Below, in pieces: positions 12,006 to 35,505 of a stretch of 64,000 nt of DNA. A model generated the notes under the pieces. The model did no database searches and was not told where the DNA came from. It saw only the letters and a list, made by a program, of their open reading frames with translations. The DNA comes from Taibaiella chishuiensis (GTDB taxonomy: Bacteria; Bacteroidota; Bacteroidia; Chitinophagales; Chitinophagaceae), in assembly GCF_003014535.1 (NCBI RefSeq), contig NZ_PYGD01000011.1:1-64000 (forward strand), in the 5' to 3' direction. A program made the translations under genes and the position numbers. Position 1 is the stretch's first letter. Every line of letters begins with the position of its first letter.

Positions 12006-12242
12006 ATGAAGAAGCAAAAGGTAATGCTCAAAAAACTATCTATCCATAAAGGCACGATTGCCGCACTGACCGATAACCTGCAGGAAGGTGCAAAAGGCGG
12101 TGCATCGGGCACCGGCTGGGGTTGTAAAGGTCCCAGTTACTGCGAGTGGAGTAAGCCGCCCGAGTGCACACAACCTACACAGCTTTGCCCCGTTACCGTA
12201 AACCTCTGCGGTCCTTCGGTAGATATCATCTGTATACCATAA
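12006..12242 (+). CDS. GG-type RiPP (class I lanthipeptide-like) precursor peptide A1
   Basis: This 78-aa peptide has a leader of the Bacteroidota natural-product-precursor type (MKKQKVMLKKLSIHKGTIAAL, about 1-22), ending in a Gly-Gly at AKGG (about 31-32). The core is ASGTGWGCKG... with six Cys and many Ser/Thr, the substrates for dehydration and thioether rings in lanthipeptides. Leader resemblance to 12468, 34411 and 34945 is strong. No modifying enzyme, protease or transporter is encoded nearby, so maturation would have to be done in trans. The chemistry (lanthionine, disulfide or other) is inferred, not seen. Confidence 0.75.
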   Translation: MKKQKVMLKKLSIHKGTIAALTDNLQEGAKGGASGTGWGCKGPSYCEWSKPPECTQPTQLCPVTVNLCGPSVDIICIP

Positions 12243-12467: not shown

Positions 12468-12668
12468 ATGAAAAAGAAAAAAGTAGCGCTGAAAAGCCTT
12501 AAGCTTGATAAAGCTCACCTGTTAAACCTTAATGCTATTGAAGGCGGCAAGGGTGTTGAAGGAAAAACAATCATCAAAATCACAACTGATGATCCAAACA
12601 ACCCTACCAATGCCACCTGGTGTTTCTTCTGTCCTCCTAACCAAAGCCTGGACAGGCTCTGCCTCTGA
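12468..12668 (+). CDS. GG-type RiPP (lanthipeptide-like) precursor peptide A2
   Basis: This 66-aa peptide begins MKKKKVALKSLKLDKAHLL, the same leader style as its neighbour at 12006. The double Gly is at IEGGKG (about 26-27). The core is shorter and less Cys-rich, with three Cys near the end (TWCFFCPP and RLCL) and a run of Thr/Asn/Asp before them. It is more diverged than the other three precursors. A strong terminator follows at 12691-12719. A TTGGTACCAA palindrome lies upstream at 12396-12405. Confidence 0.68.
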   Translation: MKKKKVALKSLKLDKAHLLNLNAIEGGKGVEGKTIIKITTDDPNNPTNATWCFFCPPNQSLDRLCL

Positions 12669-30333: not shown

Positions 30334-31893
30334 TTATTTTTTCACAAACCTGTAGGTACTGCCGTCGGCGAGCTTCAGGAAGTAGATACCCGAAGCCCAG
30401 CTGCGCACTTCTATTCCGGCCACAGCCGTGACGGTAAAATGCGTAACCTGCCTGCCCTGCAGATCGGTTACATAAGCCGTAGTACCCAACAGCGCCTCGT
30501 CGGCTACGAGCAGGTTAAGCTGTGCCGTGGCCGGGTTGGGGCTGAGGCTTACCGAACCGCCGGTAGACCGTATCACCTGCCGTACCGGGCTGTACACATC
30601 ATTGCCACCGGCATAGCGCATCTTTAAGCGGTAAAAGGAACGGCCGGTCAGCGGGCTAAGATCGGCATGTTGGTAAGCCGCCGGATCAGCATTAACGGCA
30701 GCTACCGTTGCCAGGCGGTTAAAACTGCGACTGTCTGTACTCCGCTCCACGTCAAAACCGGTGAGCGCCTGATCCGAAGTTACCGTCCATTGCAACAGGG
30801 TCTTGGCCGGCTGAGCGGTGGCGGTAAACTGCAACAGTTCCAGGGCCAGGCCTACCGCGGTATTGGTTATTTTACGCACACGCCGGTTCTTTTCATCCGC
30901 CACATACAGGTCGGTTCCTTTAATATAAAGATCCGAGGGCAGGTTGAGTGCCGCGCCGATAGCCAGGCCGTTGTCGCCGCCAAAAGCACCGGTGGCGTTA
31001 CCGCCGGCAATAGTACTGTGTGTACCTGCCGTTATTTTACGGATGGCGTTACCTGCAGCACCGGTAGTTACAAAGATATTGCCGGCATCGTCGACCGCTA
31101 CGCCGGTAGCGGCGCCGATACCGGTACCGGTAATAGCCGTAGTGCCATCGCCGGCAACCGTAGTAATGGTTTGCGTGGCCAGGTCGATACTGCGGATGCG
31201 CCTGTTCTTACAATCGGCCACATACAGTTTATTGCTGCTGACGTACAGGTCGGCGGGCAGGTTAAGCGTGGCCGCAGCAGCGGCATTGTTATCGCCCGAG
31301 AAACCGGCAACGCCCGTACCGGCGAAAGTAGTCGTTACGCCGGCAGGCGTTATTTTACGGATCATATTGCGCGCACCGGTGGCGGCGTAAATATTGCCCG
31401 CCGTATCGACGGCTATAGCATTGGCCGCGCCGATACCGTTGCCTGTAATGCCTGCCGTTCCATCGCCGGCAACCGTGGTTACTGTATTGGTCGCCAGGTC
31501 GATCTTACGGATCCGGCGATTGCCGGCATCGGCTATATACAGGTTGTTGCGGCTGATGTAGAGATCCTGTATATTTTTAAATGTAGCGGAGGCCGCAGTA
31601 TTGTTATCGCCCGAGAAACCGGCGACTCCGGTACCGGCAAAGGTAGTGACCACGTTGGCAGGTGTTATTTTGCGAATGGTGTTTAAGCCGCCGGTAGCCA
31701 CATAGATATTACCGGCCGTATCGACGGCTACGCTATTACTGCCCCCAATACCTGCTGCCCCGATCGCGGCACTGCCATCGCCGGCCACCGTACTGATGGT
31801 TTGCTGGGCAGCGCTATGCCAGGCGCCGACAGTAAGCAGCAGCCCGGAGAACAAGCAACCTAACCTGCGATAATGTATAAACTTGTGTTTCAT
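30334..31893 (-). CDS. NHL-repeat beta-propeller protein with T9SS type A sorting domain
   Basis: The 519-aa secreted protein starts with a signal peptide (to about WHSAAQ, residue 30). Three near-identical units of about 104 residues follow (about 31-345). Each has TVAGDG, VAVDTAGNIY, IRKITPA, TTFAGTGVAGFSGDN and LYVAD..NRRIRKI; each unit probably gives two propeller blades, six in all. A linker with LLQFTATAQ and an FDVERS..SRSF region comes next. The last roughly 80 residues are a type A sorting domain (LSPNPATAQLNLLV, YVTDLQGRQV, ASGIYFLKLADGS, then KFVKK-like end). It is co-transcribed with the tail-collar gene 17 bp upstream. Confidence 0.88.
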   Translation of the reverse strand: MKHKFIHYRRLGCLFSGLLLTVGAWHSAAQQTISTVAGDGSAAIGAAGIGGSNSVAVDTAGNIYVATGGLNTIRKITPANVVTTFAGTGVAGFSGDNNTAASATFKNIQDLYISRNNLYIADAGNRRIRKIDLATNTVTTVAGDGTAGITGNGIGAANAIAVDTAGNIYAATGARNMIRKITPAGVTTTFAGTGVAGFSGDNNAAAAATLNLPADLYVSSNKLYVADCKNRRIRSIDLATQTITTVAGDGTTAITGTGIGAATGVAVDDAGNIFVTTGAAGNAIRKITAGTHSTIAGGNATGAFGGDNGLAIGAALNLPSDLYIKGTDLYVADEKNRRVRKITNTAVGLALELLQFTATAQPAKTLLQWTVTSDQALTGFDVERSTDSRSFNRLATVAAVNADPAAYQHADLSPLTGRSFYRLKMRYAGGNDVYSPVRQVIRSTGGSVSLSPNPATAQLNLLVADEALLGTTAYVTDLQGRQVTHFTVTAVAGIEVRSWASGIYFLKLADGSTYRFVKK

Positions 31894-31910
31894 ATCGTAC
31901 AGATTAAAGG

Positions 31911-32516
31911 TTATGGAGTAGGGAATATGCCTTGCAGCGAAATGATAAAGGTTACCGAAAGACTGGGTTGCTTAATAGGCACCGGTATACCGCTACCGGT
32001 GGCCGAAACAGTAGCGGCATTTAAGGTAGTATTAGGCGCTGTAGTACCGAAGGCATTGGCGCGCGACAAGTCGGCGTTTTGCACCAGGGACAGGTATGAC
32101 GTACTGCCGGACAGCGAATCGAGGGTACCGGAACCGTTGTAAATATTGATCAGGTGATTGTGTGGTGGCAGGTTGGCGGTAACCAGGGTAACCTGTTCGG
32201 AACCTTGCTGCATGCCGGGTATAGTAGGCGTAAGCCCGGGGCCATTGCCCGTACCCATCGGCACCCGTCCGCGCATATCGGGCAAGGCAAAGGTATTAAT
32301 ACCATCGCCGCCATAGGTAGTACCCAGCAGCGCAAACAGGGGGGTATACTGGGCGATAGACAACAACTGACCTTCACACTTCATCCATCCCTGGGGCGCA
32401 AAGGTACCGGCAAACATCTTGATCTCGCCCACATACTGGTTTTGGGCAAAACTGCGGGACAAAGGTGCAGCAAAAAGGGCCAGCAGCAGGGCCAGGAGTA
32501 AACATGTCTTTTTCAT
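31911..32516 (-). CDS. Exported phage tail-collar domain protein
   Basis: The 201-aa product has a signal peptide (MKKTCLLLALLLALFAAPLS..SFAQ) and then a tail-collar/MdpB-like domain. Its marks are YVGEIKMFAGTFAPQGWMKC, EGQLLSIAQYTPLFALLGTTYGGDG, TFALPDMRGRVPMGTG and NLPPHNHLI. In phages this domain sits on tail fibres. Stand-alone exported forms occur in Bacteroidota and proteobacteria with no assigned function. No other phage gene is near. It is upstream of, and probably in one transcript with, the NHL-propeller gene. Confidence 0.87.
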   Translation of the reverse strand: MKKTCLLLALLLALFAAPLSRSFAQNQYVGEIKMFAGTFAPQGWMKCEGQLLSIAQYTPLFALLGTTYGGDGINTFALPDMRGRVPMGTGNGPGLTPTIPGMQQGSEQVTLVTANLPPHNHLINIYNGSGTLDSLSGSTSYLSLVQNADLSRANAFGTTAPNTTLNAATVSATGSGIPVPIKQPSLSVTFIISLQGIFPTP

Positions 32517-34112: not shown

Positions 34113-34199
34113 AATAAGATATGCCGGTTTTACGGAATCCTGCTGTTTGCACAGCGGTGGGCTGAGGCCTTAACCGGTCGGCCTTTTTTAGATCGGTGG

Positions 34200-34207
34200 C
34201 AAATATA
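34200..34207 (-). promoter_or_regulatory. -7 box of glyQS promoter
   Basis: On the minus strand TATATTTG matches TAnnTTTG; TTTT stands 19-20 bp upstream in place of the -33 TTTG. It lies 88 bp before the glyQS ATG. The rest of 34113-34410 holds no gene. Confidence 0.55.
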
Positions 34208-34410
34208 CAGCTAATTAGAAGTGCTGAAAAATCATCTTTAAGAAAAACACATTTTCCTGCCGGGTGTATCCTGTGGTAGGTACCACCGCCCTGCAAGTGC
34301 AATTACTCGATCAGCCTGCACGGCTACCAGGCATCGTTCAGCGGCTAAGCAATCCTGCTTTATCCTTGCCGATAAGACCGATAACTTCAAGGAACAAAAA
34401 TGTATGTTTT

Positions 34411-34695
34411 ATGAAAAAGAAAGTAGTTGTTTTGAAAAAACTAAGCCTGGATAAGCAAGTAATTGCCGCACTTGACCAGGTGCAACAAGACCAGGCTCGC
34501 GGCGGCGCTAACAGTATATGGGAAGCCTGTGCCTACACCAGGGCCCTCTCCTGCGGAGCCGGTTGCGTTACCGTAGCAGGACTCACCTGCACCCCTGACA
34601 ACCTCTGCAAGGGCACCCTTAATGCCCAAAGCTGTATTTCCTGCCGCGGCGATTCCGGCTGCCCTTCCCAGGCGCCTTATTGCATTTCGCAATAG
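34411..34695 (+). CDS. GG-type RiPP (lanthipeptide-like) precursor peptide B1
   Basis: This 94-aa peptide is read from ATG 34411; a longer in-frame start at 34264 gives residues that do not fit the family. The leader MKKKVVVLKKLSLDKQVIAA ends in a Gly-Gly at QARGG (about 31-32). The core of about 62 residues has nine Cys and many Ser/Thr, ending SCISCRGDSGCP, then SQAPYC. Eight or nine Cys line up with those in the neighbour at 34945. The pair are tandem paralogues with their own spacers. No maturation or export genes are near. Confidence 0.78.
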   Translation: MKKKVVVLKKLSLDKQVIAALDQVQQDQARGGANSIWEACAYTRALSCGAGCVTVAGLTCTPDNLCKGTLNAQSCISCRGDSGCPSQAPYCISQ

Positions 34696-34720
34696 ACTGC
34701 AGGCTCTACCTGCTTTCCAA

Positions 34721-34754
34721 AAGCGATGCTCAAGCGGGAATGCGCTTTTTTAAC
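34721..34754 (+). terminator. Possible terminator after precursor B1
   Basis: AAAAGCG (about 34721) can pair with CGCTTTT (about 34743-34749), and TTTTTT follows. The stem is short and the loop long (about 17 bases), so this is a moderate call. Confidence 0.4.
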
Positions 34755-34944
34755 CGGTAGTAAATACGAGTGAAAGAAAAACAATAATATGACGATGCAT
34801 ACCGGCAAACTTTCGTACGGTCTTCCGGTGTGCAGTTAAATGCAGTTATCACTCAATTGTATAATCGCCCGTATCACCAGCTAAGTTGCAGGCTGCCAGG
34901 CGCTTGTTTCCCGGTATCTTTAAGGAAATCAAATTACAGGATAC

Positions 34945-35232
34945 ATGAAAAAGAAAAAAATTGCCCTCAAAAAACTCAGCCTGAACAAGGAAGTGATTGC
35001 AGCCCTGGACGGCGTACAGCAACAGCGCGCCCTGGGCGGCGGCGACAGCGTAATCAAGTGGGAAATGTGCAACTACAGCCAGCAACCTTCCTGCAACGAC
35101 AACTGTGTTACGGTAAAAGGACAGACCTGCGAACAGCTCGCGTTCTGTATCGGCACCAATAACAGCTGCATTTCCTGTGCAGGCGGTACGGGTTGCCCTA
35201 CCCGTCCGCCTTATTGCCAGATCGGCAACTAA
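34945..35232 (+). CDS. GG-type RiPP (lanthipeptide-like) precursor peptide B2
   Basis: The 95-aa peptide has leader MKKKKIALKKLSLNKEVIAA and then a Gly-Gly-Gly at ALGGGD (about 31-33). The roughly 62-residue core has nine Cys. The spacing is close to that in the peptide at 34411, including the shared segment ending SCISCAGGTGCP, then TRPPYC. The upstream region has a TATCTTTA box (about 34914) near the -7 consensus, and a strong terminator follows at 35258-35277. Ring chemistry and bioactivity are inferred only from leader type and composition. Confidence 0.78.
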   Translation: MKKKKIALKKLSLNKEVIAALDGVQQQRALGGGDSVIKWEMCNYSQQPSCNDNCVTVKGQTCEQLAFCIGTNNSCISCAGGTGCPTRPPYCQIGN

Positions 35233-35257
35233 GCCCTGATTTTCCTTTATTCCAAAG

Positions 35258-35285
35258 CCATCCCGCAACCGGGATGGTTTTTTTT
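35258..35285 (+). terminator. Rho-independent terminator after precursor B2
   Basis: CCATCCCG (35258-35265) pairs with CGGGATGG (35270-35277) around a CAAC loop and is followed by eight T. It lies 25 bp after the stop codon. Confidence 0.92.
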
Positions 35286-35474
35286 GTGCTACCCGTCATT
35301 ACGATAGGCCACAAGAGCCTGATCATGCCCACCGTAAAGCCTGGTTCATTTTTTCTTTTCTTTGACAAATGGCCTTCGCTTAAAAGCCTACCTTTAAAGG
35401 GCTTGCGGCCGCGCCGGGCTCCCTTTTTGTTCGTTTGTTTATTAAAACTTAACATTGGGGAGCAAAAAGAAAAA

Positions 35475-35482
35475 TATTTTTG
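35475..35482 (+). promoter_or_regulatory. -7 box of ppk1 promoter
   Basis: TATTTTTG fits TAnnTTTG and lies 23 bp before the ppk1 ATG. An ATTG 17 bp upstream is a weak -33 candidate. Confidence 0.5.
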
Positions 35483-35505
35483 CGCTGCCATAACACACAT
35501 TATTT

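Follow-up and report, generated by a model that had tools for sequence, protein, structure and literature searches.

Prochlorosins and synechococsins (ProcM, SyncM) derive from tens of scattered precursors that join a conserved leader to diverse cores and are served by few enzymes: ProcM has 29 substrates, and two Synechococcus strains carry 79 and 83 precursors (PMC10783134). In PMC11251773, the cyanobacterial scattered set is tied to CCC-type synthetases. For Bacteroidetes class I lanthipeptides, PMC7268733 describes precursor leaders with an L-x-L-x-K-x5-L signature and GG. That survey was confined to seven genes from LanC; for this reason, according to the same paper, scattered prochlorosin precursors went unidentified. 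The paper also describes the nisin-type leader as FxLD-type. Nisin-type class I lantibiotics would have LanB and LanC chemistry in common with the peptides discussed below. Pinensins and Pedobacter PedA15 are mentioned as relatives from the phylum. Two other papers state that no LanB was detected in the Bacteroidales that were screened (PMC10352776) and that Taibaiella ranks second in biosynthetic cluster load within the phylum (PMC9248904). In the open-access literature listings searched, we found no report of a scattered class I lanthipeptide set, and nothing on Taibaiella lanthipeptides or on orphan lanthipeptide precursors with LanB.

We analysed a window of 64,000 nucleotides of Taibaiella chishuiensis (contig NZ_PYGD01000011.1, positions 1 to 64,000) that holds two tandem precursor genes. 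Precursor 1 (34411..34695, plus strand) is an ORF of 94 aa and precursor 2 (34945..35232, plus strand) an ORF of 95 aa. Both start with ATG and encode a leader of residues 1-32 ending in GG, followed by a core of 62 and 63 aa, respectively, with nine Cys each. A first-pass annotation had proposed two nine-Cys peptides here; both ORFs were found where it placed them, with 9/9 Cys aligned and the pattern S-C-I-S-C-x-G-x-x-G-C-P-x-x-x-P-Y-C at both C-termini. Its view of the genes as a duplicated pair agrees with their tandem arrangement and an identity of 59%; its description of the leaders as near-identical was overstated, since a count by eye gives 23/32 shared residues (72%). When the cores are aligned, all 9/9 Cys positions agree, Ser/Thr is kept as Ser/Thr at 10/12, and other residues are identical at 15/41. 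Cys is conserved while other residues differ, as the annotation had said (Cys versus other residues, Fisher p = 0.0005). Both leaders matched NF038153 (lant_leader_L1a, NCBIfam, class I lanthipeptide) with 35.8 bits for precursor 1 and 32.9 bits for precursor 2 (cut-off 22). It was the only NCBIfam model matched by the pair at E <= 10, and a Pfam search of both peptides at the same threshold matched no family. The signature L-x-L-x-K-x5-L is present as LSLNKEVIAAL and LSLDKQVIAAL, with GG at 31-32.

The annotation had read the Cys pattern as a conserved ring topology and advised that Cys conservation be checked among relatives. The pattern holds within the pair. Four relatives from the same-genus genome G001 were picked by eye from 27 loci and aligned with the pair, loosely in the middle; across these six sequences, 5/9 Cys columns, one Thr column and one Ser column were invariant. 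Further relatives among the 27 loci depart from the pair's Cys pattern, so Cys positions drift in part. Judged from these alignments, the Cys positions of the pair are constrained, yet not frozen. The pair had also been called diversifying. The core has indeed changed faster than the leader (dN/dS 0.53 and 0.18, respectively); the core value nevertheless lies below 1 and gives no sign of positive diversifying selection. These values were obtained by NG86, a crude method, and synonymous sites are near saturation in paralogue comparisons. Over 15 independent paralogue pairs, the window pair included, pooled dN/dS was 0.24 for the core and 0.23 for the leader.

The pair lies in a glyS-ppk intergenic region of 1393 bp (34113..35505). 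Nothing unusual surrounds it: besides glyS and ppk there are genes for a Ppx/GppA phosphatase and an HI0933-like flavoprotein. glyS and ppk are adjacent in same-genus genomes G003 and G001, with gaps of 599 and 647 bp, and neither carries a precursor at this site. The pair was therefore either gained in the window genome or lost in the relatives. In the third same-genus genome, G002, ppk was found and no glyS match lay within 14 kb around it. A hairpin of 12 pairs followed by a T run (35254..35281, plus strand), just 3' of precursor 2, resembles an intrinsic terminator and may act as one; three hairpin sites were found against 2.1 expected in shuffles, and this stem was the longest (12 pairs versus 5 and 5). 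A further precursor of the same scattered set, above the NF038153 cut-off, lies at 12006..12212 on the plus strand (match coordinates; the ORF continues to a stop), and a weaker, possible one at 12468..12578 on the same strand (match coordinates; 14.3 bits, below the cut-off). No LanB (PF04738) or LanC (PF05147) profile match was found in the window; all matches of the genome lie outside it, and about 168 kb separate the pair from the nearest LanC match on its contig. The pair is thus not clustered with LanB/LanC; clustering is usual, not chemically required. On the minus strand, the window at 30334-32516 encodes two proteins, one with NHL repeats and a Por secretion tail and the other with a tail-collar domain; neither was matched in the syntenic regions of two same-genus genomes.

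The window genome (G000, 5.84 Mb) gave 79 NF038153 matches at E <= 1, of which 63 were above the cut-off, whereas 0/14 control genomes had a match over the cut-off. At E <= 0.01, the three same-genus genomes gave 98 (G001), 60 (G003) and 0 (G002) matches. G002 also lacks LanB and LanC matches (0 each) and retains a C39 transporter; the producers are G000, G001 and G003. For the window genome, 78 of the 79 matches were extracted, the one left out lying in a 3614-aa frame with 13.6 bits; for the relatives, 93 of 98 (G001) and 57 of 60 (G003) were listed and one G003 locus was left out. Two peptides had no usable core: one from G003 without a GG site and one from G000 with nothing after GG. The resulting 78, 93 and 56 precursors fall into 49, 75 and 46 loci, counted as separate when more than 2 kb lay between them, and 13/78, 7/93 and 6/56 lie within 10 kb of a LanB/LanC match (window genome, G001 and G003, respectively). 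The Bacteroidetes survey, by its design, took in clustered precursors (PMC7268733), whereas 65/78 in the window genome have no LanB/LanC match inside 10 kb. The annotation, made from the sequence alone, could not show that the pair has dozens of counterparts spread over the genome with no enzymes close by. The high cluster load of Taibaiella may partly reflect this set. The motif TTG-N17..23-TAnnTTTG was present upstream of 10/227 precursors, where mononucleotide shuffles gave 1.6 on average; a looser form of it was absent before either pair gene. A shared promoter was dropped from the reading. Nine precursors of the window genome, one below the cut-off, are gathered on both strands of 4.6 kb (G000 C3:258924-263479; L078:8925-13480), with similar small secreted-type proteins, judged by eye, in and around them.

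Among 147 genomes, the window genome included, the leader occurred in 9, LanB in 16 and LanC in 18. All 9 leader genomes carry both enzymes (hypergeometric p = 2e-10 for LanB and 7e-10 for LanC, phylogeny ignored), and 7/16 LanB-bearing genomes have no L1a leader. This co-occurrence and the leader family support the annotation's assignment of the peptides to RiPP precursors. Sampled relatives outside the genus had at most seven leader matches per genome. In a phylum sample of 395, eight genomes besides the window's own carried the leader, with at least 1 to at least 19 matches each; the largest sets were at least 19 at one locus (G343) and at least 7 in two regions (G303). The G343 locus (C1:2257066-2260358; L266), from a more distant member of Bacteroidota, packs its at least 19 matches into 3.3 kb, an extreme clustered array. 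A pattern search of a named genome collection gave at least one relative, the T. helva F-4 locus, among the 585 stretches listed.

The window genome has 3 LanB and 6 LanC genes. Genes for a LanB, a C39-peptidase ABC transporter and an HlyD adaptor occur together in all three producers, a conserved enzyme neighbourhood that we call the hub; between the genomes, the LanB proteins are 56-89% identical, the transporters 84-96% and the adaptors 68-88%. In G001 and G003 the three genes directly follow one another, with no LanC alongside. In the window genome they share a strand and a stretch of about 10 kb, interspersed with a LanC, a precursor and other ORFs, and a second LanC follows. All other LanC genes lie elsewhere; every one of the 14 LanC matches across the three genomes is accompanied by one or more precursors no more than a few kb away. 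Of the three LanB of the window genome, the hub enzyme and one other are full-length, and the third is shorter, at 939 aa. The zinc ligands C...CH are kept in 14/14 LanC examined, and all 6 LanC matches of the window genome lie in open frames of 403-464 aa, too short for LanM. In G003, a second LanB is split into two ORFs (C33:61813-64914; L255:8814-11915, plus strand): the ORF of 726 aa resembles the N-terminal part of other LanB, and that of 302 aa matches TIGR03891, the C-terminal domain.

The cores average 13.2% Cys, 12.1% Thr and 7.1% Ser, and both Cys and Ser/Thr are present in 225/225. We examined spacing in cores with at least two Cys, 137 of them non-redundant (no two matching at BLAST E <= 1e-3), and took the expectation from shuffles of the non-Cys residues within each core. 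Ser/Thr occupied position Cys-5 in 263/698 cases (0.377 versus 0.225 expected, z 9.9) and was not enriched at Cys+5 (z -2.2). The Cys-5 peak was present in each of the three genomes (z 10.1, 8.2 and 5.1), for Ser alone (z 10.0) and for Thr alone (z 4.9); none of 11 other residues tested at Cys-5 peaked, and 286 control ORFs gave no peak (z 0.8). Nisin rings span other distances, namely Cys-3, -4 and -6. An artefact of the first Cys was dismissed, z being 9.8 after its removal, and dependence on a Cys at -7 was rejected: it does not cause the peak, since Ser/Thr stood at Cys-5 in 46/91 cases with it and in 204/575 without it. The peak was found both in 24 cores near LanB/LanC (43/94, z 5.7) and in 120 orphan cores (z 9.6), as predicted for processing by like enzymes. 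Linked and orphan cores differ elsewhere. Ser/Thr at Cys+1 is avoided by orphan cores (64/644, z -8.0) and not by linked ones (28/93, z 1.9); Ser/Thr at Cys+2 is favoured by orphan cores (180/595, z 5.2) and not by linked ones (17/98, z -1.2), and control ORFs also show a mild excess there (z 3.6). Further peaks were seen for Pro at Cys+1 (z 7.1), for Asn at Cys-1 (z 5.4) and for Ser/Thr at Cys+2 (z 4.7 in the 137 cores). The Cys-5 signal covers a minority of Cys and leaves most unexplained. In contrast to the genus, 35 clustered L1a cores from other genomes, picked by pattern from 13 fetched stretches and including redundant tandem copies, lacked the Cys-5 peak (0.18, z -2.6). A Cys-5 rule for the whole NF038153 leader family was therefore abandoned.

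In the pair, Ser/Thr precedes Cys at this distance for 5/9 Cys of precursor 1 and only 3/9 of precursor 2. The candidate ring pairs (core numbering) are S3-C8, T11-C16, S15-C20, T29-C34 and S54-C59 in precursor 1, and S13-C18, S17-C22 and T54-C59 in precursor 2; the latter three are the counterparts of T11-C16, S15-C20 and S54-C59 in precursor 1.

Of 36 reciprocal G001-G003 pairs, the 33 with E <= 1e-10 were used to count residue conservation. Their dN/dS was 0.08 for the core and 0.14 for the leader, and 194/201 core Cys were kept. Core Ser/Thr were identical at 240/277 positions versus 696/968 for other residues (p = 2e-7, residues taken as independent). Leader Ser/Thr were less kept (80/118 versus 720/928 for others), and 69 control ORF pairs from the same genomes gave 1778/2707 for Ser/Thr versus 16363/21826 for others, with the same direction in each of five identity bands; the control ORFs were six-frame ORFs of at least 200 aa from the fetched stretches, some of which may not be genes. 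When orthologues of the window genome were compared with those of the two relatives, 40/44 Ser/Thr at Cys-5 were kept versus 80/117 other Ser/Thr (p = 0.004; 19 pairs, some genes occurring twice). Against G001 alone the counts were 26/29 versus 50/75 (p = 0.025), and between G001 and G003 they were 61/63 and 196/214. Ser/Thr conservation and Cys-5 spacing point, at the level of sequence, to (methyl)lanthionine.

We propose that the pair are probably class I lanthipeptide precursors belonging to a genome-wide scattered substrate library that is processed in trans. The conserved L1a leader would be recognised in trans by the central dehydratase LanB, whose gene shares one neighbourhood with the C39-peptidase ABC transporter and the HlyD adaptor, and this LanB would dehydrate core Ser/Thr. 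One or more of 4-6 stand-alone LanC would then join Cys to the dehydrated residues, preferably in Ser/Thr-x4-Cys rings, and the C39 transporter would cleave after Gly-Gly and export the product. Three rings are predicted in both pair members: S/T11/13-C16/18, S15/17-C20/22 and S/T54-C59. The genes, leaders, gene distribution, enzyme neighbourhood, residue conservation and spacing statistics were observed directly; the action of LanB, LanC and the transporter on the pair peptides, the ring pairs and export are inferred. To name a particular LanB or LanC for the orphan precursors would be a guess. The likeliest role would be an extracellular repertoire of antagonistic or signalling peptides.

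The peptides could instead be secreted Cys-rich peptides with disulfides only, the leader serving as a mere C39 export signal and LanB/LanC acting on the few linked precursors alone. Such peptides would agree with the high Cys content, the small number of precursors near a LanB/LanC match, the C39 transporter kept by G002 without LanB or LanC, and the difference between orphan and linked cores at Cys+1 and Cys+2. They would not lead one to expect the Ser/Thr conservation or the Cys-5 spacing, whose peak appears in orphan and linked cores; moreover, G002, which lacks LanB/LanC, has no leader match despite its C39 transporter. The annotation had argued against disulfides from the odd Cys number of the pair. 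Alone, this is weak: 107 of 225 cores have an odd number (p = 0.51), although the same count speaks against disulfides in that even numbers are not preferred. Its preference for thioethers over plain disulfides is favoured by the Ser/Thr conservation and the Ser/Thr at Cys-5. We consider the disulfide-only explanation unlikely.

Other RiPP chemistry on Cys of the orphan members, such as radical-SAM thioethers to alpha carbons or MNIO-type oxidation, appears very unlikely: the orphans have their leader in common with LanB/LanC-linked precursors, and both Ser and Thr are specifically placed and conserved, even though the cores are very Cys-rich, and one LanC locus holds a graspetide-type ATP-grasp gene and another a ThiF-like gene, so that mixed chemistry may exist in the window genome. 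A decaying gene family without product would account for the pair's absence from the syntenic site of two relatives and for high turnover, since 12/77 window-genome cores have a reciprocal best core in two relatives (E <= 1e-6) and 15/19 such reciprocal pairs have no alike flank (blastn E <= 1e-20). It is hardly compatible with the core dN/dS of the 33 G001-G003 orthologue pairs, 28/33 of which have at least one conserved flank, or with the window pair, whose core dN/dS is 0.53 with 9/9 Cys kept; we regard decay as extremely improbable.

The preferred reading, class I processing in trans, invites comparison with the known systems. The set of the window genome has in common with Bacteroidetes class I lanthipeptides the leader signature, the GG site, and LanB, LanC and a C39 transporter in the genome, as these are described in PMC7268733. 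With the prochlorosin type it shares many scattered precursors and few enzymes. It differs in class: prochlorosins are class II, with one LanM and a Nif11-type leader, whereas the set of the window genome has separate LanB and LanC, another leader family and CCH-type LanC. Judged from the frame lengths of the six LanC matches of the window genome, a LanM synthetase appears to be absent, and the NCBIfam and Pfam searches of the pair at E <= 10 returned no Nif11-type leader. We see an evenly balanced case for the genus as a class I equivalent of the prochlorosins, with one LanB-C39 hub, several free-standing LanC and about 55-98 scattered precursors per genome, in which Ser/Thr-x4-Cys would encode the preferred ring and ring topology would thereby be readable from sequence. 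If true, natural combinatorial lanthipeptide biosynthesis would not be special to cyanobacterial LanM enzymes, and dozens of scattered substrates would likewise be handled by a LanB/LanC pathway whose enzymes are separate. A search confined to the vicinity of LanC would then overlook most such precursors, the Ser/Thr-x4-Cys rule would give testable ring predictions for more than 200 cores, and the enzymes would be candidate tolerant class I tools.

Several LanC or LanB loci carry additional genes. At G000 C1:1014997-1016604 (L072:1-1605, minus strand) lies an MvdC/MvdD-kind ATP-grasp peptide ligase gene (TIGR04185, 374.7 bits, cut-off 425). A similar ORF, judged by eye, stands beside it, and LanB, LanC and two L1a precursors adjoin; this is possibly a mixed lanthipeptide-graspetide locus. 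Two L1a precursors, a ThiF/E1-like protein and a LanC are encoded at G000 C4:254091-257189 (L075:6092-9190, plus strand), with no LanB match nearby. Histidine-kinase/response-regulator-like pairs stand beside LanC or LanB loci at L074:7380-9142, L071:17634-19443 and L076:5315-7062; the gene at L074:8096-9142 is a His_kinase by Pfam, and the other kinase- and regulator-like genes were recognised by similarity to it or to each other.
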